Assembly: GCF_002932875.1 (NCBI RefSeq)
Contig: NZ_PSWS01000053.1
Coordinates: forward strand, 122,594 to 186,593
Source of the DNA: Rathayibacter tritici
GTDB lineage: Bacteria; Actinomycetota; Actinomycetes; Actinomycetales; Microbacteriaceae
DNA length: 64,000 nucleotides
Direction: 5' to 3'
In this document: piece by piece, positions 3,091 to 58,184 of the stretch
Numbering within the stretch: position 1 is the stretch's first letter
How the letters are laid out: each line of letters starts with the position of its first letter
Program-made: the position numbers and the translations under genes
The notes under the pieces: model-generated
What the model was told of the DNA's origin: nothing
Databases searched by the model: none
Seen by the model: only the letters and a program-made list of their open reading frames with translations

Positions 3091-4452
3091 CTAGAGAGTG
3101 GCGAAGGCGTCGGCGATGACGGACATCGCGTCGTCGAGCAGCTCGTCGGTGAGGGCGAGGCTGGGCAGGAAGCGGACGACGTTGCCGTAGGTGCCGGCGC
3201 TCAGCACGAGGACTCCGTGCTGCGCGGCGTAGTCGATGATCGCCTGCACGGCCGCGGTGTTCGGCTCCTTGGTGGTGGCGGCGGTGCCGGGCTGGACGAG
3301 CTCGATCGCCATCATCGCGCCGATGCCGCGCACCTCGCCGATGATGTCGTAGCGCTCCTGCAGGCCGCGCAGCGCGGTGCCGAGGCGGGCGCCGATCCGG
3401 TCGGCCTCGGCGAGCAGGCCCTCGCGCTCAATGCGCTCGAAGACCGCGACCGCGGCCGCCGCAGCGACGGGGTTGCCGCCGAAGGTGCCGCCGAGCCCAC
3501 CGGCCTGCGCCGAGTCCATGATCTCGGCGCGGCCGGTCACACCGGCGAGCGGGAGGCCACCGGCGATGCCCTTGGCCGAGAGGACGAGGTCGGGGACGAG
3601 GCCCAGGTGCTCGCTGGCGAACCAGGCGCCGGTGCGGGCCATGCCCGACTGGATCTCGTCGGCGACGAAGACGATCCCGTTGGCCGTGCACCACTCCTGC
3701 AGCGCGGGCAGGAAGCCCTCGGCGGGGACCATGAAGCCGCCCTCGCCCTGGATCGGCTCGGCGACGAGACAGGCGAGGGCCGAGGCGCCGACCGTCTTGT
3801 CGAGGTAGGAGATGGCACGCTGAGCGGCCTCTGCTCCTGACAGGCCGTCGTGGTAGGGGTACGAGCTCGGCGCGCGGTGCACGTCGCTCGCGAACGGTCC
3901 GAAGCCCAGGCCGTACGGCAGGGCCTTGAAGTTCATCGCCATCGTGAGGTTGGTGCGGCCGTGGTAGGCGTGATCGAGCACCGCGACGCCGGGGCGCCCG
4001 GTGTGCTTGCGAGCGATTTTGACGGCGTTCTCGACCGCCTCCGCACCGGAGTTGACCAGGACGGTCTTTTTGGCGAAGTCACCGGGGGTGTGCTCGGCGA
4101 GCAGCTCCGCCACGCGGATGTACGGCTCGTAGGGAGTGACGGTGAAGAGCGTGTGCGTGAGGCGGGCGAGCTGCTGGGCGGCGGCTGCGACGACGGAGTC
4201 GTCGGTGTGCCCGATCGTCGTCACGCCGATGCCGGCGCCGAGGTCGATGAAGCTGTTGCCGTCGACGTCGACCAGGATCGCGCCGTGCGCGCGGTCGATG
4301 TAGACGGGGAGCGCGGTGCCGACTCCGGTGGGGACGACGGCGAGGCGGCGCTCGTGCAGGGCCCGGGATCGCGGCCCGGGGATCTCGGTCGCGACGCGCC
4401 GCTCCTGGGGGACTGCGGACGTGGGAACCTGGGGGGCGAGCGTGTCTGTCAT
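3091..4452 (-). CDS. gabT: 4-aminobutyrate aminotransferase (class III), GabT type
   Basis: A 453-residue PLP-dependent class III aminotransferase. Visible motifs: LVNSGAEAVENAVKIAR (cofactor phosphate region), DHAYHGRTNLTMAM, EPIQGEGGFMVP, VADEIQSGMARTG with the PLP-ring aspartate, and SAKGIAGGLPLAGV with the Schiff-base lysine, then GTFGGNPVAAAAA. It would transfer the amino group of GABA to 2-oxoglutarate, giving succinic semialdehyde and glutamate. A second paralogue lies at 5813-7147 and a polyamine-type transporter at 1-1971, which suggests polyamine or GABA breakdown. Upstream of the ATG at 4452 there is TAGACT and then GAGGACC as a possible ribosome site. The exact substrate cannot be fixed from sequence; other omega-amino acids are possible. 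Confidence 0.88.
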   Translation of the reverse strand: MTDTLAPQVPTSAVPQERRVATEIPGPRSRALHERRLAVVPTGVGTALPVYIDRAHGAILVDVDGNSFIDLGAGIGVTTIGHTDDSVVAAAAQQLARLTHTLFTVTPYEPYIRVAELLAEHTPGDFAKKTVLVNSGAEAVENAVKIARKHTGRPGVAVLDHAYHGRTNLTMAMNFKALPYGLGFGPFASDVHRAPSSYPYHDGLSGAEAAQRAISYLDKTVGASALACLVAEPIQGEGGFMVPAEGFLPALQEWCTANGIVFVADEIQSGMARTGAWFASEHLGLVPDLVLSAKGIAGGLPLAGVTGRAEIMDSAQAGGLGGTFGGNPVAAAAAVAVFERIEREGLLAEADRIGARLGTALRGLQERYDIIGEVRGIGAMMAIELVQPGTAATTKEPNTAAVQAIIDYAAQHGVLVLSAGTYGNVVRFLPSLALTDELLDDAMSVIADAFATL

Positions 4453-11013: not shown

Positions 11014-11157
11014 GTGCGATGTGCAGGGGATTCGGCTTCCCGGATTCCAGCGACGCGACTGGGAGCGCTCTCAGCCGTCGGGGTCCTGCAGATCGGACGG
11101 GGTCCTGCAGATCGAACGGGGTCCTGCACATCGAACGTTCTCCTGCAGATCCGTTCG
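11014..11157. repeat. 19-bp iteron element, copy A (one module)
   Basis: A left unit (GCGATGTGCAGGGGAT, within 11014-11030) is followed by a palindromic core GAGCGCTC at 11063-11070, extended by CTG on one side and CAG on the other. Four right units then repeat with a period of 19 bases: 11081-11099, 11100-11118, 11119-11137, and a diverged unit at 11138-11157. The consensus right unit is GGGTCCTGCAGATCGAACG. Its reverse complement matches the left units at 50915-50990. The element lies just upstream of the ispG promoter. Confidence 0.85.
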
Positions 11158-17554: not shown

Positions 17555-20440
17555 GTGGCAAAACCACGCGTACACGAGATCGCATCCGAACTCGGTGTCG
17601 ATAGCAAGGTCGCACTTGCGAAGTTGAAAGAGCTCGGCGAGTTCGTCAAGGGACCGTCCTCGAGCATCGAACCCCCGGTCGCCCGCAAGCTCCGCCAGGC
17701 CCTTCAGGGCCAGGGCGGATCCGCAGCGGGCGCGTCGTCGACCCCGGCGACCCCTACCGCCAGCGCCCGGCCCGGGGCTCCCCGCCCCGCCGGCGCACGC
17801 CCCTCCGCGCCGACGCCCGGCCCGGTGAAGCCGCCCGCTCCGGCGCCGGCTCCGCCGATGTCGGTCGCCGAACGCCAGGCTCAGGCTCAGGCCGCCCAGG
17901 AGGCCGCGGCCGCTCAGCGCGCTCAGGCCGCGAAGGACGCCCCGGCCGAGGCCGCCGCTCCGGCTCCGACCGAGGCGGCCGAGGCCCCGGCCGCGACCGA
18001 CAAGCCGACGTCCGGCCCCACCCCGGGCGGACCCAAGCCTGTGACTCCGCGTCCGGCTCCCGCCGCGAACACTCCGCGCCCCAGTGGTGCCTCGGGCGGC
18101 TCCAACCGCCCCGGCGGCACCCCGCGTCCGGGCAACAACCCGTTCGCCAGCAACCAGGGCATGGGACAGCGTCCGGCCGCCCCGCGCCCCGGCAACAACC
18201 CCTTCGCCAGCTCGCAGGGCATGGGATCGCGTCCGACCCCGGGCAACATTCCCCGCCCCGCAGCTCCGCGCCCCGGCACGCCCCGACCCGGCGGACCCGG
18301 TATGGGCCAGCGCCCCGCCGGCTTCGGCCAGCGTCCCGGCGGGCCCGGCGGCGGCGCGGGACGTCCCGGCGGTGCCGGTCGTCCCGGCGGCGGCGGATTC
18401 CAGCGCCCCGGCGGTGCTCCCGGTGCCGGTGGCGGCTTCGCCCCCCGTCCCGGTGGCGGCGGCGGTCGCGGTCGCGGCCCCGGCGGTGGGACCGCGGGCG
18501 CCTTCGGCCGCGGTGGCGGCAAGAGCAAGGCCCGCAAGTCCAAGCGCACGAAGCGTCAGGAGTTCGAGCTCAGGGAGGCCCCGTCGCTCGGCGGTGTCAG
18601 CGTTCCCCGCGGGGACGGCAAGACGGTCATCCGTCTTCGCCGCGGCGCGTCGATCTCGGACTTCGCCGACAAGATCGAGGCCATGACCGGCGTGCCGGTA
18701 CCCCCCGGCAACCTGGTCACCGTCCTCTTCGCCCTCGGCGAGATGGCGACGGCGACCGAGTCGCTCGACGAGGCCACCTTCGAGGTGCTCGGCTCCGAGC
18801 TCGGCTTCACGATCCAGGTCGTCTCGCCCGAGGATGAGGACAAGGAGCTCCTCGAGGGCTTCGGTCTCGACCTCGAGCAGGAGCTGGACGACGAGACGGA
18901 CGAGGACCTCGAGATCCGTCCCCCCGTCGTCACCGTCATGGGTCACGTCGACCACGGAAAGACGCGCCTGCTCGACGCGATCCGCAACGCCAACGTCGTC
19001 GCCGGCGAGGCGGGCGGCATCACGCAGCACATCGGTGCGTACCAGGTCGTCGCGGAGCACGAGGGCATCGAGCGTCCGATCACCTTCATCGACACCCCGG
19101 GTCACGAGGCGTTCACCGCCATGCGAGCCCGCGGTGCCCAGGTCACGGACATCGCGATCCTGGTGGTCGCGGCGGATGACGGCATCATGCCGCAGACCAT
19201 CGAAGCGCTGAACCACGCCCAGGCGGCCAACGTGCCGATCGTGGTCGCGGTGAACAAGGTGGACAAGCCCGACGCGAACCCGGCCAAGGTGCGCCAGCAG
19301 CTCACCGAGTTCGGGCTCGTCGCGGAGGAGTACGGCGGAGACGTCATGTTCGTCGACGTGTCGGCCCGTGCCGGCACCGGTATCCAGGACCTCCTGGACG
19401 CCGTGCTGCTCACCGCGGACGCCGGTCTCGACCTGCGCGCCAACCCCGACAAGGAGGCGCGCGGAGTCGCGATCGAGGCGAAGCTCGACAAGGGACGCGG
19501 TGCGGTCGCGACCGTCCTCATCCAGTCGGGAACGTTGCGGGTCGGCGACGCGATCGTCGCCGGAACGGCGTACGGCCGCGTGCGTGCGATGGCGGACGAG
19601 AACGGCAACGCCGTCCTCGAGGCCGTACCGTCGCGTCCGGTTCAGGTGCAGGGACTCTCGTCCGTGCCCCGCGCCGGCGACACCTTCCTCGTCACCGAGG
19701 AGGATCGCACCGCTCGCCAGATCGCCGAGAAGCGCGAAGCCGCTCAGCGCAACGCCCTGCTGGCCAAGGCCCGCAAGCGCATCTCGCTCGAGGACTTCAC
19801 CCGTGCTCTCGAGGAGGGGAAGGTCGAGTCGCTCAACCTCATCATCAAGGGCGACGTGTCCGGTGCCGTCGAGGCGCTGGAGGAGTCGCTCGTCAAGATC
19901 GAGGTCGACGACTCCGTGCAGCTGCGGATCATCCATCGCGGTGTCGGTGCGATCACGGAGTCGGATGTCAACCTCGCGACGATCGACAACGCGATCATCG
20001 TGGGCTTCAACGTCCGCCCCGACCCGAAGGCCCGCGAGCGCGCTGCCCGAGAAGGAGTGGACATCCGCTTCTACTCGGTCATCTACAACGCGATCGAAGA
20101 GGTCGAGAACTCGCTCACGGGCATGCTCAAGCCCGAGTTCGAGGAGGTTCAGTCCGGTGTCGCCGAGATTCGCGAGGTGTTCCGCTCCTCGAAGGTCGGC
20201 AACATCGCGGGTGTCATCGTCCGCTCCGGCACGATCACCCGCAACTCGAAGGCGCGTGTCATTCGTGACGGCGTGGTCGTCGGTGACAACCTCGCCATCG
20301 AGTCGCTGCGTCGCTTCAAGGACGACGTCACGGAGGTCCGTACGGACTACGAGGCCGGTATCGGTCTCGGTAAGTACAACGACATCCAGATCGGCGACGA
20401 GATCGAGACGATCGAGATGAAGGAGAAGCCGCGAGGCTGA
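17555..20440 (+). CDS. infB: Translation initiation factor IF-2
   Basis: A 961-residue IF-2 that brings fMet-tRNA to the 30S subunit. The GTG at 17555 follows AGGAGAGAA. The N-terminal IF2_N module ([27 protein letters not shown]) is followed by a long Ala/Pro/Gly-rich linker (about residues 55-330) in which FASNQGMG and FASSQGMG modules and PGG repeats occur. The GTPase domain has G1 GHVDHGKT near residue 463, then [24 protein letters not shown] and VSARAGTGI, followed by domains II-IV and [15 protein letters not shown] near the C-terminus. Size is usual for actinobacteria. The Gly-rich linker makes the opposite strand look open, but that frame is not a gene. Confidence 0.96.
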
Positions 20441-36084: not shown

Positions 36085-36944
36085 GCGATCCGCGCGCCCG
36101 ACTCGGCCTCGGCCGGCCCGAGGGCCGCGAGGGCGTCGAGGAGGCCGACGGCGAAGGACCCGGGGCCACTGCTCGTTGCGGCGGCACGCTCGGCGGCGAG
36201 GCCCCACACGGCCGAGGCGCTGACGGCGGCGTCGAGCGGGCGGACCCCTGCGCCGAGGAATGCGGCCATCACCGCGCCCAGCGCGCAGCCGCCGCCGGTC
36301 ACCCGGGTCAGCAGCGGGTGGCCGCCGGTGACCCGGACGACGCGCTCGCCGTCGGTGACGAGATCGATCGCTCCCGAGACGGCGAGAACGCCGCCCGTGC
36401 GGCGGGCCAGGTCTCGGGCGGAGTCGAGGGCCTGCTCGGCGGTGTCGACCGCGTCCACTCCACGCCCGCCCGCACCGGCTCCCGCCAGGGCGAGGATCTC
36501 GGAGGCGTTGCCGCGGATGATCGCGGGCCGCGCCTCCAGCAGCTCGACGGCGAGAACGGTGCGCACGGGCAGCGGGCCGACGGCGACGGGATCGAGCACC
36601 CACGGGGTACCGGCGCGGGTGGCCGCGGCGACCGCCTCCCGCGCGCCCTCGCGCTGCTCCGCTCCGGGCGTGCCGAGGTTGACGAGGACGGCGGAGGCGA
36701 TACCCGCGAAGACGCCCGCCTCGCCGGGCAGATCGCACATCGCTGCGCTGGCGCCGAGGGCGAGCAGGCTGTTCGCGGTGAAGCCGGTCACAACCGCGTT
36801 CGTGATGCACTGCACGAGCGGCTCGGCGGCGCGGAGGGCGACGAGATCGCGACCGACGGACGCCGGGCCGGGCACCGCACGGGGCGCCGGGTCGGCGGCC
36901 GTGTCGGCGGGGAGGGGCGGGTGGACAGGCGTGCGAATACTCAT
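36081..36944 (-). CDS. thiM: Hydroxyethylthiazole kinase
   Basis: A 287-residue ribokinase-like enzyme that phosphorylates the thiazole alcohol for thiamin salvage. Features: [71 protein letters not shown], and the C-terminal [23 protein letters not shown] in pieces ([12 protein letters not shown] is the catalytic anion hole). The N-terminus is extended by about 20 Pro-rich residues. The ATG at 36944 is used because GAAGGGA sits 9-10 bases upstream; an ATG at 36953 lies inside the riboswitch aptamer. First gene of the thiamin operon. Confidence 0.93.
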
Positions 36945-36946
36945 TC

Positions 36947-37023
36947 GCGACATCCCTTCGCTAGTACGAACTAGATCAGGTTCAACGGGTCTTCTCTCAG
37001 CCCAGGCGGGCACCCCGTGTCAC
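36947..37023 (-). promoter_or_regulatory. TPP riboswitch (THI element) of the thiM operon
   Basis: On the minus strand the conserved elements appear in order: ACGGGGTGCCC, GGGCTGAGAGAAGACCC with the CUGAGA core, TTGAACCTGATC, and CGAAGGGATG. GTGACA (37018-37023) pairs with TGTCGC (36947-36952) to form P1 with one G-U pair. The thiM Shine-Dalgarno sequence GAAGGGA (about 36954-36960) is itself part of the 3' aptamer strand, so TPP binding should hide it and block translation of thiM. This is a direct sequence match to a well-known class. Confidence 0.95.
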
Positions 37024-37160
37024 TGCGGATGACCCTAGCAGCGGGCGCGGCGACGCCCGCCCGCGTCGTCGGGCCGCGTCGCCGGCCTCGGCCTCTCTGG
37101 CCGTATCGGCCTCTGCGGCCGCACCGACCGAGGCTCCCGCCCCACCGCGTCGGCGCCGCC

Positions 37161-49351: not shown

Positions 49352-50896
49352 ATGCCTTCCGTCCGTGCTCTTCCGTCACCACTCCTGCGCCCGCGCCACT
49401 TCGACCGCGACGATGTCGTGGTCCACGCCGGCCTGTTCTCGCTGGTGAACTCGAGTACGACGCCGCGCGCGGCCTGGACCGAGGACCTGATCGCGATCGG
49501 CGAGGTCCTCGACGCCGCCGAATTCCCCTACCGCCTCATCCGCGGCACCGACGGCTCGCCGTTCCTCGCGGTCGACCGCGTGCTCGGCGCCGAGCTGGCG
49601 ACCCTGCTGGCTCGCGCGTTCGCCACCGAGCCCTTTTACGCGAAGACCGTCGACAAACGCGGAACCCCGCCGCAGCTGCTGGCCGAGGGAGTTCTCGCTC
49701 CGTACCCGCGCGCCGCCGTCTTCAAGCTGTTCCGTCCGCGCGTCTCCTCCACCGGATCGCTGCGCTACGGCGCCAGGAGCGGCGTCCGCCTGGAGCTGTG
49801 GAAGGTCGGCGAGGAGGAAATCATCACTCCCGCCGAGAACGCGCTGATGCGCAACAGCCTCCCCGTCGCCGAGGCAATCGACGCGCACGTTGAAGCGTAC
49901 GGCCGCACCTGGCCGACCTTCGAGGGCATGTTCGAGCCGCTGGTGAGCGACATCCGCTTCGAGGTCGACATCGTCTTCTCGTGGGTGGACGGCACCGATC
50001 TCGAGTTCCAGCGCGCCCGCGCGGCCCGGATGTCCAGTTACGTGGTGGGCGAGGGCGACGACGCCCCCGCGCGCTTCCGCCAGATCGATGAGCTGAAGTA
50101 CGCCCTGCGCAGCGTCTACATGTACGCGCCGTGGATCCGGCACATCTACATCGTCACCGACTCCCCGCGTCCGCGCTGGCTCGACGAGCACCCCGACGTG
50201 ACGCTCGTGCGCAGCGAGGACCACTTCCGCGACCTCTCGGTGCTGCCCACCCACAACTCCCACGCGGTCGAAAGCCAGCTGCACCGCATCCCGGGCCTGG
50301 CCGAACACTTTCTCTACTCCAACGACGACATGTTCTTCGGGCGCCCGGTCGATCCGTCGATCTTCTTTTCGCCCGGAGGCATCACCAAGTTCATCGAGGC
50401 GACCACGCGCATCGGCATGGGCGATTCCAACGCCTCGCGCAGCGGCTTCGAGAACGCGGCCCGCGTCAACCGGCGCCTGCTGCGCGAGCGCTTCGGGGCA
50501 ATGACGACGCGCCACCTCGAGCACGCCGCCACTCCGCTCCGCAAGAGCGTGATGGCCGAGCTGGAGACAGAGTTCGAGCCGGAGTTCACCGCAACCGCCG
50601 CCAGCCGCTTCCGCTCGGCGAGCGACGTCTCCGTCACGAACTCGCTCTACCACTACTACGCGCTGATGACCGGGCGGGCGGTCGTGCAGGAGAACGCCGC
50701 AGTGAAGTACGTCGACACGACGATGCACCAGGGCCTGAAAGACATGCGCAAGCTCCTGAAGAACCGCGGAGTCGACTTCTTCTGCCTCAACGACGGCAGC
50801 TTCCCCGAGATCTCGGCGGAGGCGCGCACCAAGGCCGTGATCGGCTTCCTCGAGGAGTACTACCCGATCCCGGCCCCCTGGGAGCGCGAGGACTGA
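49352..50896 (+). CDS. Stealth-family sugar phosphotransferase
   Basis: A 514-residue protein with the four Stealth conserved regions: CR1 EVDIVFSWVDGTDLEF near residue 210, CR2 FRQIDELKYALRSVYMYAPW followed by HIYIVTDSPRPRWL, CR3 HRIPGLAEHFLYSNDDMFFG, and a C-terminal CR4-like part (YHYYALMTGRAV). Such enzymes transfer sugar 1-phosphates to make phosphodiester-linked capsule or cell-wall polymers. The first 150 residues form the less conserved N-terminal region seen in actinobacterial members. The start has GATAAT 7 bases upstream. It is isolated, and its 3' end runs into the iteron region. Confidence 0.9.
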   Translation: MPSVRALPSPLLRPRHFDRDDVVVHAGLFSLVNSSTTPRAAWTEDLIAIGEVLDAAEFPYRLIRGTDGSPFLAVDRVLGAELATLLARAFATEPFYAKTVDKRGTPPQLLAEGVLAPYPRAAVFKLFRPRVSSTGSLRYGARSGVRLELWKVGEEEIITPAENALMRNSLPVAEAIDAHVEAYGRTWPTFEGMFEPLVSDIRFEVDIVFSWVDGTDLEFQRARAARMSSYVVGEGDDAPARFRQIDELKYALRSVYMYAPWIRHIYIVTDSPRPRWLDEHPDVTLVRSEDHFRDLSVLPTHNSHAVESQLHRIPGLAEHFLYSNDDMFFGRPVDPSIFFSPGGITKFIEATTRIGMGDSNASRSGFENAARVNRRLLRERFGAMTTRHLEHAATPLRKSVMAELETEFEPEFTATAASRFRSASDVSVTNSLYHYYALMTGRAVVQENAAVKYVDTTMHQGLKDMRKLLKNRGVDFFCLNDGSFPEISAEARTKAVIGFLEEYYPIPAPWERED

Positions 50897-50914
50897 GCGC
50901 GAGCCGCGCCGCGC

Positions 50915-51074
50915 GATGTGCAGGCTCTCGTCCGGTGTGCAGGCCTTCGTTCGATGTGCAGGCCCTCGTCCGATGTGCAGGGGATCTGGACCGCCGTGCC
51001 CTCTTCATGCGGACGAGAGCGCTCTCCGAGAGGGATCCCCTGCTCATGGCACGGTCCCCTGCTCATCGCACGCT
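50915..51074. repeat. 19-bp iteron element, copy B1
   Basis: Four left units in direct repeat with an exact 19-base period at 50915-50933, 50934-50952, 50953-50971 and 50972-50990 (type GATGTGCAGGCCCTCGTCC). Then a perfect 12-bp palindrome GAGAGCGCTCTC at 51015-51026. Then two right units at 51037-51055 and 51056-51074 (type CCCCTGCTCATCGCACGCT), which are inverted relative to the left set. The 18-base stretch GCGGACGAGAGCGCTCTC around the palindrome is identical in copy B2. Confidence 0.9.
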
Positions 51075-51091
51075 TCCCCGCGGGACAGCAC

Positions 51092-51296
51092 GGTGTGCAG
51101 GCAGCCGTGCGATGTGCAGGAGATCTCGACGGCCGAGCTGCTCCAGAGCGGACGAGAGCGCTCTCTAGGATGTATCCCCTGCTTATCGGACGGGGCCCTG
51201 CGAATCGGACGGGGCCCTGCGAATCGGACGGGGCCCTGCGAATCGGACGGGGCCCTGCAGACCGGACCGGCCCCTGCAAATCGCACGACGGGCCCC
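51092..51296. repeat. 19-bp iteron element, copy B2
   Basis: Two left units at 51092-51110 and 51111-51129 (GATGTGCAGG core), the palindrome GAGAGCGCTCTC at 51154-51165, and six right units with an exact 19-base period: 51183-51201, 51202-51220, 51221-51239, 51240-51258, 51259-51277 and 51278-51296. Three of them are identical (GAATCGGACGGGGCCCTGC), which suggests recent unit amplification. The last unit ends at the phosphodiesterase stop codon. Confidence 0.9.
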
Positions 51297-52250
51297 CTAT
51301 GCGCTGACGCCCACAGGCTCCGCGAGCGGCGGGTACAGCGCGACGTCGCGCGTCACCGGAGCCGTCGCCGCCGCCGCGATCTCGACGCCGTGGTCCGCGA
51401 GGATCCGCTGCGTCTCGACCGCCGAGACGTAGGACACCTCGGTCGAGGCCCCGATCGGCACCACCGAGTGCAGCACCGTGCCGTCGTAGACGTGGACCAG
51501 GTTGAAGGCCTGCGCCCCGTTGCGGGCGCGCGTCGCTCCGACCGGCACATTCAAGTCCTGCGTGTAGCAGGTGGCCGAGGCGACCGAGACGGGGATGCCG
51601 GCGAACATCGCGGTCGAGGAGTAGTGCAGGTGTCCCGCGATGATGCTGCGGACGTCGGAGCCCTCGAGCACCTCCGCGAGCGCGGACTGGTCGCGCAGCT
51701 CCACGAGCACCGACAGGTCCAGAACGCTCGGCACCGGCGGGTGGTGCAGCGCCAGGATCGTGCCGTGCGGGGCCGGGCTGGAGAGCTCCTCCGCGAGCCA
51801 GTCGAGTTGCGCGCCGGAGATGGCGCCGTAGTGGGCACCGGGAACGGTCGAGTCGAGTGCGATGATCCGCAGGCCGTTCACGTCGTGCACCCGGTCGACC
51901 GGCTGCGTGGTCGGGAGCTGGTCGAGCAGCCCCGAGCGGAATGCGCCGCGGTCGTCGTGGTTGCCCATTACCCAGATCACCTCGGCGCCGAGGCGAGCGG
52001 CCGCGGGCTCGACGACCGCGCGCAGCTTCGCGTACGCCGCCGACTCGCCCTTGTCGGCCAGGTCGCCCGTGATGACGATCGCCTCGGGGCGTCCGCCGGA
52101 GTTCTCCAGCTCATCGAACAGGAGCCGCAGTTGGGCCTCGCTGTCGACGTCGGAGCCGTACAGGCCGCCGTCTCCGGCAATGAAGTGGGTGTCGCTCAGG
52201 TGAAGGATGAAGTGGTGGGGCCGGGGGTACTCGGCCTGGCGGAGGGACAT
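51297..52250 (-). CDS. Calcineurin-like phosphodiesterase, CpdA type
   Basis: A 317-residue metallophosphoesterase. Metal-binding motifs appear in order: [55 protein letters not shown] and [14 protein letters not shown]. This set and the length match the class III cyclic nucleotide phosphodiesterase (CpdA/Rv0805) group, which act on cAMP and other phosphodiesters, including cell-wall glycerophospho compounds. The start at 52250 has GAGGATC immediately upstream. The substrate is uncertain. The 3' end abuts the iteron array. Confidence 0.87.
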
Positions 52251-58108: not shown

Positions 58109-58184
58109 GGCCCCATCGTTTAGCGGCCTAGGACGTCGCCCTCTCACGGCGGTAACGCGGGTTCAAATCCCGCTGGGGTCACCA
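58109..58184 (+). tRNA. tRNA-Glu (anticodon CUC)
   Basis: Full cloverleaf. Acceptor stem GGCCCCA (58109-58115) pairs with TGGGGTC (58174-58180, one G-U pair). The anticodon loop CTCTCAC gives anticodon CUC, which reads GAG. The T arm is GCGGG-TTCAAAT-CCCGC. Discriminator A58181 is followed by an encoded CCA (58182-58184). A strong terminator follows at 58197-58225. Confidence 0.96.

Follow-up and report, generated by a model that had tools for sequence, protein, structure and literature searches.

To our knowledge, dispersed extragenic palindromes with a dedicated partner enzyme encoded by a single gene are known only as the REPIN/RAYT systems, in which repetitive extragenic palindromic (REP) repeats accompany a REP-associated tyrosine transposase. 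According to passages of the reports on such partnerships, or REPtrons, there is one tnpA-REP gene for each repeat type, often flanked by its own REPs, while the repeats are scattered between genes and the unit as a whole does not transpose (PMC6006769, PMC3116915, PMC8266576); gene and repeats co-diverge and the gene locus is stable (PMC3116915, PMC6006769). Here we describe an iterated palindromic element in a 64,000-nucleotide stretch of Rathayibacter tritici (contig NZ_PSWS01000053.1, positions 122,594 to 186,593; hereafter the window), as well as a chromosomal nuclease gene that copies of the element bracket in related genomes. We put at about 0.7 the probability that the repeat is the DNA partner of this nuclease, an AbiEi-like protein with a predicted Vsr/EDxHD-type domain, whose protomers would bind the arms of the element and cut its core, with repair spreading the repeats. 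The link between the nuclease family and inverted-pair repeats is itself well supported.

The element in the window is a block of 14 repeat units of 19 bp, spaced by 19 bp within each set, between a Stealth-family gene and a metallophosphoesterase gene. The first-pass annotation, made from the sequence alone, had described 14 units of exact 19-bp period, laid out as L4-palindrome-R2 and then L2-palindrome-R6 (L, left; R, inverted right) around two identical 12-bp palindromes and between two convergent 3' ends, and the coordinates of the unit cores, the palindromes and the flanking genes bear this out (Table 1). The extent is about 50914-51291 rather than 50915..51296. The block is better read as two modules, each consisting of L units, a 57-bp core and R units, in which the palindrome GAGAGCGCTCTC lies off-centre, 33 bp from the L arm and 12 bp from the R arm. 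A third module, L1-core-R4, absent from the earlier annotation, is found at 11017-11152, and all three share one geometry, with inverted CGATnTGCAGG arms around a 57-bp core. The pattern TGCAGG-N35-GAGCGCTC-N14-CCTGC occurs three times in the window (twice in the block and once at 11022-11089) versus 0 occurrences in 100 dinucleotide shuffles. The palindrome alone, which we take to resemble a LacI-type operator, is not significant, as 15 of 100 shuffles reach as many matches at 1 mismatch; significance rests on the fixed geometry, not on the palindrome. When single-stranded, the element arms also fold (z between -1.7 and -7.2 in the 7 tested), as expected because the arms are an inverted repeat, and the folding proves nothing beyond that.

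The repeat is a dispersed family in the genus Rathayibacter. A contig scan with the same pattern returned 11 stretches, of which 7 were from Rathayibacter (three named strains), all with iterated units; the 4 stretches from outside the genus (L001, L005, L006 and L011; L and G numbers denote loci and genomes) were without iterated units and were set aside as chance matches. Tandem units with at most 2 mismatches are present in 11 of 15 Rathayibacter genomes, at 5 to 113 matches per positive genome, and the reversed control of this search gave 0 matches in the same 15 genomes. The pattern GATNTGCAGG-N56-59-CCTGC is found in 12 of the 15, with one reversed-control match overall; some few of its matches probably arise by chance. 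Two genomes (G007 and G011) match this pattern and have no tandem units, one (G015) has tandem units and no match to the pattern, and two (G010 and G013) gave no match in either search. The spacing from the last left to the first right unit is mostly 68 or 69, and the 77 cores of that spacing, distinct by sequence only, with orthologous copies counted apart, measure 57 bp in 47 cases and 58 bp in 30. In their consensus GATC adjoins both arms, and a GCGGnGGA(g/a)AGCGCTCTCC-like motif, which is asymmetric, is seen in both orientations. Viral contigs yielded 0 matches to the core pattern, and a search of plasmid DNA gave one weak match, from Nonomuraea, which was rejected as a G+C-rich simple repeat.

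Gene calls from a home-made caller, with over-long starts trimmed past the elements, place 46 of 47 distinct elements in spacers: 25 between co-directional genes, 18 between convergent and 3 between divergent ones, with 1 unresolved. Element-free spacers of at least 30 bp in the large loci served as background (103 co-directional, 22 convergent and 38 divergent; 163 in all). Elements are over-represented in convergent spacers (p 2e-4) and under-represented in divergent spacers (p 0.006), both p-values being nominal, as the loci share ancestry.

In three genomes, a single gene separates two elements that lie about 1.1 kb from each other. The three encoded proteins, each of about 284 aa, are homologous; the start of one is over-called. 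Pfam assigns AbiEi_4 to the N-terminal part and DUF559/MTES_1575 to the C-terminal part; PF13338 is matched in 21 of 33 members at E<=0.01, and the PADLOC AbiEi match has an E-value of 1.9e-8. A Vsr/EDxHD-type domain is predicted from fold and profile matches, the best fold match of the nuclease being the catalytic domain of the homing endonuclease I-Bth0305I, and the predicted active-site residues E-D-H-D, in that order, are invariant in the 33 aligned members. The protein is thus predicted to be an AbiEi-like DNA-binding region fused to a Vsr/EDxHD-type nuclease domain.

Orthologues with at least 64% identity occur in 7 of the 15 Rathayibacter genomes, where homologue matches number up to 9 per genome. 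All seven orthologue loci have thyX and dapA as neighbours (families by Pfam), and each gene is flanked upstream and downstream by an element no more than about 130 bp off; in these loci, the only ones checked, no AbiEii (DUF1814) toxin gene lies beside the nuclease. The downstream element of G005 has a degenerate left unit. The orthologue of G008 (L080) contains an internal stop, yet is still bracketed. In G010 and G013, nucleases of 42-43% identity lie beside dapA, and the unit that brackets them is another one (GGAAATGCAGGAGAT or a variant); the nuclease of G010 has thyX as its other neighbour, and in G013 thyX was not found in the stretch read. Since it is present beside dapA in 9 of 15 genomes, this nuclease copy looks inherited. 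Five genomes (G001, G003, G009, G011 and G014) have thyX directly adjoining dapA, without the nuclease, and carry elements elsewhere. The thyX-dapA junction of G015 (L175, L038) also has no nuclease and retains an element remnant, the core palindrome plus right-hand units, which is perhaps the scar of recombination between two element copies. No CGATnTGCAGG-type element was found near the other 23 fetched Rathayibacter homologue loci, and the window has no nuclease gene among its open reading frames (ORFs) of at least 80 aa.

A locus was scored as bracketed, whatever the unit, when one 10-letter word occurred in each flank of the gene together with its reverse complement at a distance of 30-130 bp (threshold -4; mismatches limited to 1 within an arm pair and to 2 between the two sides); flanks were of 380 bp for the Rathayibacter set and 400 bp for the Microbacteriaceae sets. 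By this test 15 of 29 Rathayibacter homologue loci are bracketed and 14 fail (L091 was left out of the count); outside the 7 orthologues the figure is 9 of 22, and for unrelated genes of the same genomes and the window it is 0 of 152. The test misses real cases, as L078 fails despite visible elements. In the family as a whole, 94 of 150 Microbacteriaceae genomes have nuclease homologues (protein search, E<=1e-20). Beyond Rathayibacter, 21 of the 30 best loci and 31 of 40 further loci in rank order are bracketed, giving 52 of 70 with 18 failing the automated test; these being best-ranked matches, the fraction among distant homologues may be lower. The 40 further loci leave out a contig-edge fragment in G037 and one row in G143, and L202 is cut by a contig end. 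When the upstream flank of one locus was combined with the downstream flank of another, 18 of 207 swapped pairs passed, in our opinion mostly because several families share AAATGCAGGA-like arms. Two Tsukamurella homologues were not bracketed by the automated test (0/2). A phylum-wide sample of 246 genomes gave a homologue in 3 (E<=1e-12), of which two were Microbacteriaceae found before, and therefore the clade, as seen with the query used, is centred on this family.

Most nuclease families have their own arm sequence, with many arms ending, by eye, in CAGGA, and the bracketing unit is also the scattered unit. The pair AAATGCAGGA-N40-70-TCCTGCATTT occurs in 17 of 150 genomes, with up to 36 pairs per genome, and among the matches listed none came from the reversed control. 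Twelve genomes have at least 4 such pairs, and in 9 of these a fetched nuclease locus is flanked by the AAATGCAGGA unit, not all four arms being exact in G024, G052 and G150; of the same twelve, G037 has a contig-edge nuclease fragment with the unit and G056 a nuclease bracketed by another unit. Among the five genomes with 1-3 pairs, four were profile-searched (G089 was outside that search), and in G143 one such arm lies beside a broken locus. As separate observations, several cores in the nuclease flanks of L203, L211 and L215 include GGCGTGTCG/CGACACGCC palindromes. In L113 and L202 these same palindromes form the bracketing unit, so that one repeat family may be nested in another. Another family, at L116 (G140), has the arm unit TCCCAAATCAAGGAGTCG twice in a row, and tandem units are therefore not unique to Rathayibacter. 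A distant nuclease homologue is found at 3323-4132 of MT839994.1, an unannotated 4.9-kb 'Bacteriophage sp.' record.

Over 66 bracketed loci (L078, L091 and L202 left out), arm similarity is 0.57 at 25-30% protein identity and climbs steadily to 0.87 at 60-80%. Partial permutation tests, restricted to pairs below 55% identity and removing the shared ancestry of the loci only partly, place the signal in residues 61-180 (rho 0.26, p 0.0005); it is weak in residues 1-60 (0.07, p 0.07) and absent from the nuclease domain (0.007, p 0.45). It is the AbiEi-like region that arm sequence follows, and not the nuclease domain.

Comparison of relatives also documents turnover of the repeats. The element at 51 kb in the window and its orthologue in G005 have the same two modules with different unit numbers, and the units look homogenised within each element, because TGTGCAGG is present in 6 of 6 left units of the window and TTCGCAGG in 5 of 6 left units of G005. 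One locus has three modules in G006 and one in G004, with flanks 94-97% identical. Several element loci are common to more than one species. Beside ispG, one element is common to the window and G005, and other elements are found in G009, G011 and G012; besides the genomes with an element there, 10 of the 14 read are without a filter-passing one, and G006 gave no ispG locus. At this site, filled in some genomes and empty in others, the spacers are too diverged to place the junctions at which a transposon or miniature inverted-repeat transposable element (MITE) would show a target-site duplication.

The modules are listed in Table 1 with other features of the window, in which Rfam matched only a thiamine pyrophosphate (TPP) riboswitch and a tRNA gene, with no match at the repeat block.

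Table 1. Coordinates of the repeat modules and other features in the window
Feature	Position	Strand	Remarks
Module A, left arm	11017..11027	+	One unit; between M50 peptidase gene and gcpE/ispG
Module A, fixed 57-bp core	11028..11084	+	GGGAGCGCTCTC at 11061-11072
Module A, right arm	11085..11152	-	Four inverted units
Stealth-family gene	49352-50896	+	3' end convergent with metallophosphoesterase gene
Module B, left arm	50914..50981	+	Four 19-bp units (core CGATGTGCAGG, one CGGTGTGCAGG); unit cores at 50914, 50933, 50952, 50971
Module B, fixed 57-bp core	50982..51038	+	Palindrome GAGAGCGCTCTC at 51015-51026
Module B, right arm	51039..51068	-	Two inverted units; unit cores at 51039, 51058
Module C, left arm	51091..51120	+	Two units; unit cores at 51091, 51110
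Module C, fixed 57-bp core	51121..51177	+	Palindrome GAGAGCGCTCTC at 51154-51165
Module C, right arm	51178..51283	-	Six inverted units; unit cores at 51178, 51197, 51216, 51235, 51254, 51273
Metallophosphoesterase gene	51297-52250	-	3' end convergent with Stealth-family gene
G+C-rich short tandem repeats	18120-18235 and 18305-18464		Periods 60, 21, 18, 24; perhaps a low-complexity protein-coding stretch
TPP riboswitch	36936-37027	-	Rfam, 74.2 bits
tRNA gene	58109-58181	+	Rfam

Like REPIN/RAYT, the system described here combines dispersed extragenic inverted-pair repeats with one cognate gene per repeat type that is flanked by its own repeats, although not at every locus; here too, gene and repeats diverge together and the gene keeps a stable locus. 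The enzyme is different, an AbiEi-like region with a Vsr/EDxHD-type nuclease domain (both predicted) in place of an HUH Y1 transposase; the nuclease protein, to which this search was confined, has no Y1 transposase match in Pfam, the genomes themselves not having been searched for Y1. Further differences are the arms of iterated 19-bp units, the fixed core of 57 or 58 bp with its own palindrome, and the unit GTGCGATnTGCAGG, which by inspection is without a GTAG/GTGG foot, whereas the REP hairpin has 5' GT[AG]G. Passages of one report state that some RAYT subclasses are also without the GT[AG]G tetranucleotide (PMC6006769). Because the defining enzyme differs, the element-nuclease system is not a member of REPIN/RAYT. 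The predicted catalytic domain is of the EDxHD type, as in the homing endonuclease I-Bth0305I, but the gene here lies, by context, outside any intron or intein, its own site is unsplit, and it is bracketed by two elements with many gene-free copies besides; it is not a standard homing endonuclease gene, since there is an element on each side and not the halves of one. The AbiEi-type N-terminal domain is shared with the AbiE type IV toxin-antitoxin systems, from which the present proteins differ in their nuclease fusion, in the absence of an AbiEii toxin gene at the thyX-dapA loci and in having repeats scattered over the genome; as no toxin gene adjoins, the thyX-dapA locus does not hold an AbiE toxin-antitoxin pair. 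Vsr acts in mismatch repair, whereas the nuclease here is tied to a repeat family. In the part of the report consulted, a Caulobacter DUF559 protein is treated as a Vsr-like repair enzyme (PMC12907096). The open-access literature, a scope that leaves most subscription papers outside, gave no description of a DUF559 protein linked to a repeat family or of a nuclease-repeat association.

For the mechanism we draw on two precedents. Passages on AbiEi describe binding to inverted repeats, with two monomers per promoter and bending of the DNA (PMC7319586), and I-Bth0305I is described, in the part of the source seen, as dimeric, with a target of nearly 60 bp (PMC3943268). By analogy with these proteins we infer that the nuclease binds, cuts and spreads the repeats: a pair of protomers would occupy the inverted arms, which are separated by about 57 bp, and their nuclease domains would meet over the core and then nick or cut it. 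Break repair between copies could lead to gain or duplication of modules, change in unit number and homogenisation, and perhaps could also carry repeats to new sites, so that the repeat population would spread and persist in trans, in the way assumed for REPINs with RAYTs. Frequent double-strand breaks are unlikely, because each genome holds many intact targets, and our guess is a weak, nicking or single-strand activity. We also favour, if with somewhat less assurance, the view that the Microbacteriaceae harbour a second, independently evolved class of REPtron, in which a vertically kept nuclease, as a dimer on inverted arms, would sustain a private population of gene-free repeats in trans while its recognition region and the repeat co-evolve towards many specificities.

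Several observations weigh against a nuclease-repeat partnership, some of them directly and others by favouring a different explanation. Before trimming, the simple gene caller first had 14 of the 47 distinct elements inside an ORF call, so the placement in spacers depends on that step; no nuclease was found in G072, which has at least 4 AAATGCAGGA pairs; and no AAATGCAGGA unit was found at the nuclease loci of G074, G125 and G152, which have 1-3. The element upstream of the nuclease gene would suit an operator, and AbiEi and Rv2827c are indeed described, in passages of PMC7319586, as binding inverted repeats and autoregulating; the gene-side elements would then be autoregulatory sites of the AbiEi-like protein and the scattered copies incidental or a regulon. 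We consider this unlikely, given the second copy downstream of the gene in 7 of 7 orthologues and the invariance of the predicted active-site residues in all 33 aligned members. The placement of the scattered copies (18 convergent and 3 divergent of 46 resolved, vs 22 and 38 of 163 in the background) opposes it as well, because convergent spacers are favoured and divergent ones avoided, the reverse of a promoter regulon. A homing cassette, in which element, gene and element move as one and solo elements are targets or scars left after cassette loss, would account for the I-Bth0305I fold match, for the gene-free remnant at thyX-dapA in G015 and for as many as 9 homologue matches in one genome. 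It is improbable nonetheless, as the gene beside dapA in 9 of 15 genomes looks inherited, the flanking elements are whole and not halves of one split site, and many scattered copies come without a gene.

The first-pass annotation had itself offered a bidirectional terminator, a protein-binding array and a mobile repeat like REP or the bacterial interspersed mosaic element (BIME), and had held that absence of further copies would reduce the element to a local tandem duplication. The terminator found no backing, with 0 terminator-like sites by consensus in 50800-51400. The further copies that a REP/BIME-like repeat requires are present, the pattern occurring in 12 of 15 Rathayibacter genomes, and the REP-like option joined to the binding array is the best supported, the family being dispersed, while movement itself would belong to the mechanism proposed above. 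As an array serving only a host function, such as a site for a nucleoid, partition or replication protein with the nuclease irrelevant, the element is very unlikely: its direct and inverted 19-bp iterons do resemble a binding array, but inverted-pair elements lie beside most tested nuclease homologues and covary with the nuclease protein, and G010 and G013 are without any unit match. A functionless local tandem duplication, to which the differing unit numbers of relatives might point, is refuted by the further copies across the genus, and the 77 sequence-distinct cores share one geometry.

The nuclease-repeat partnership, if true, would mean that gene-plus-repeat partnerships evolved more than once, the second time on an unrelated nuclease, and would suggest a role for a large group of proteins whose annotation goes no further than 'AbiEi family antitoxin' or 'DUF559'. 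It would also provide dozens of natural protein-DNA specificity pairs from which a recognition code could be read. How extragenic palindromes spread is an old question, which would now be testable with a different chemistry, and the findings point to a new kind of self-maintaining genome repeat.
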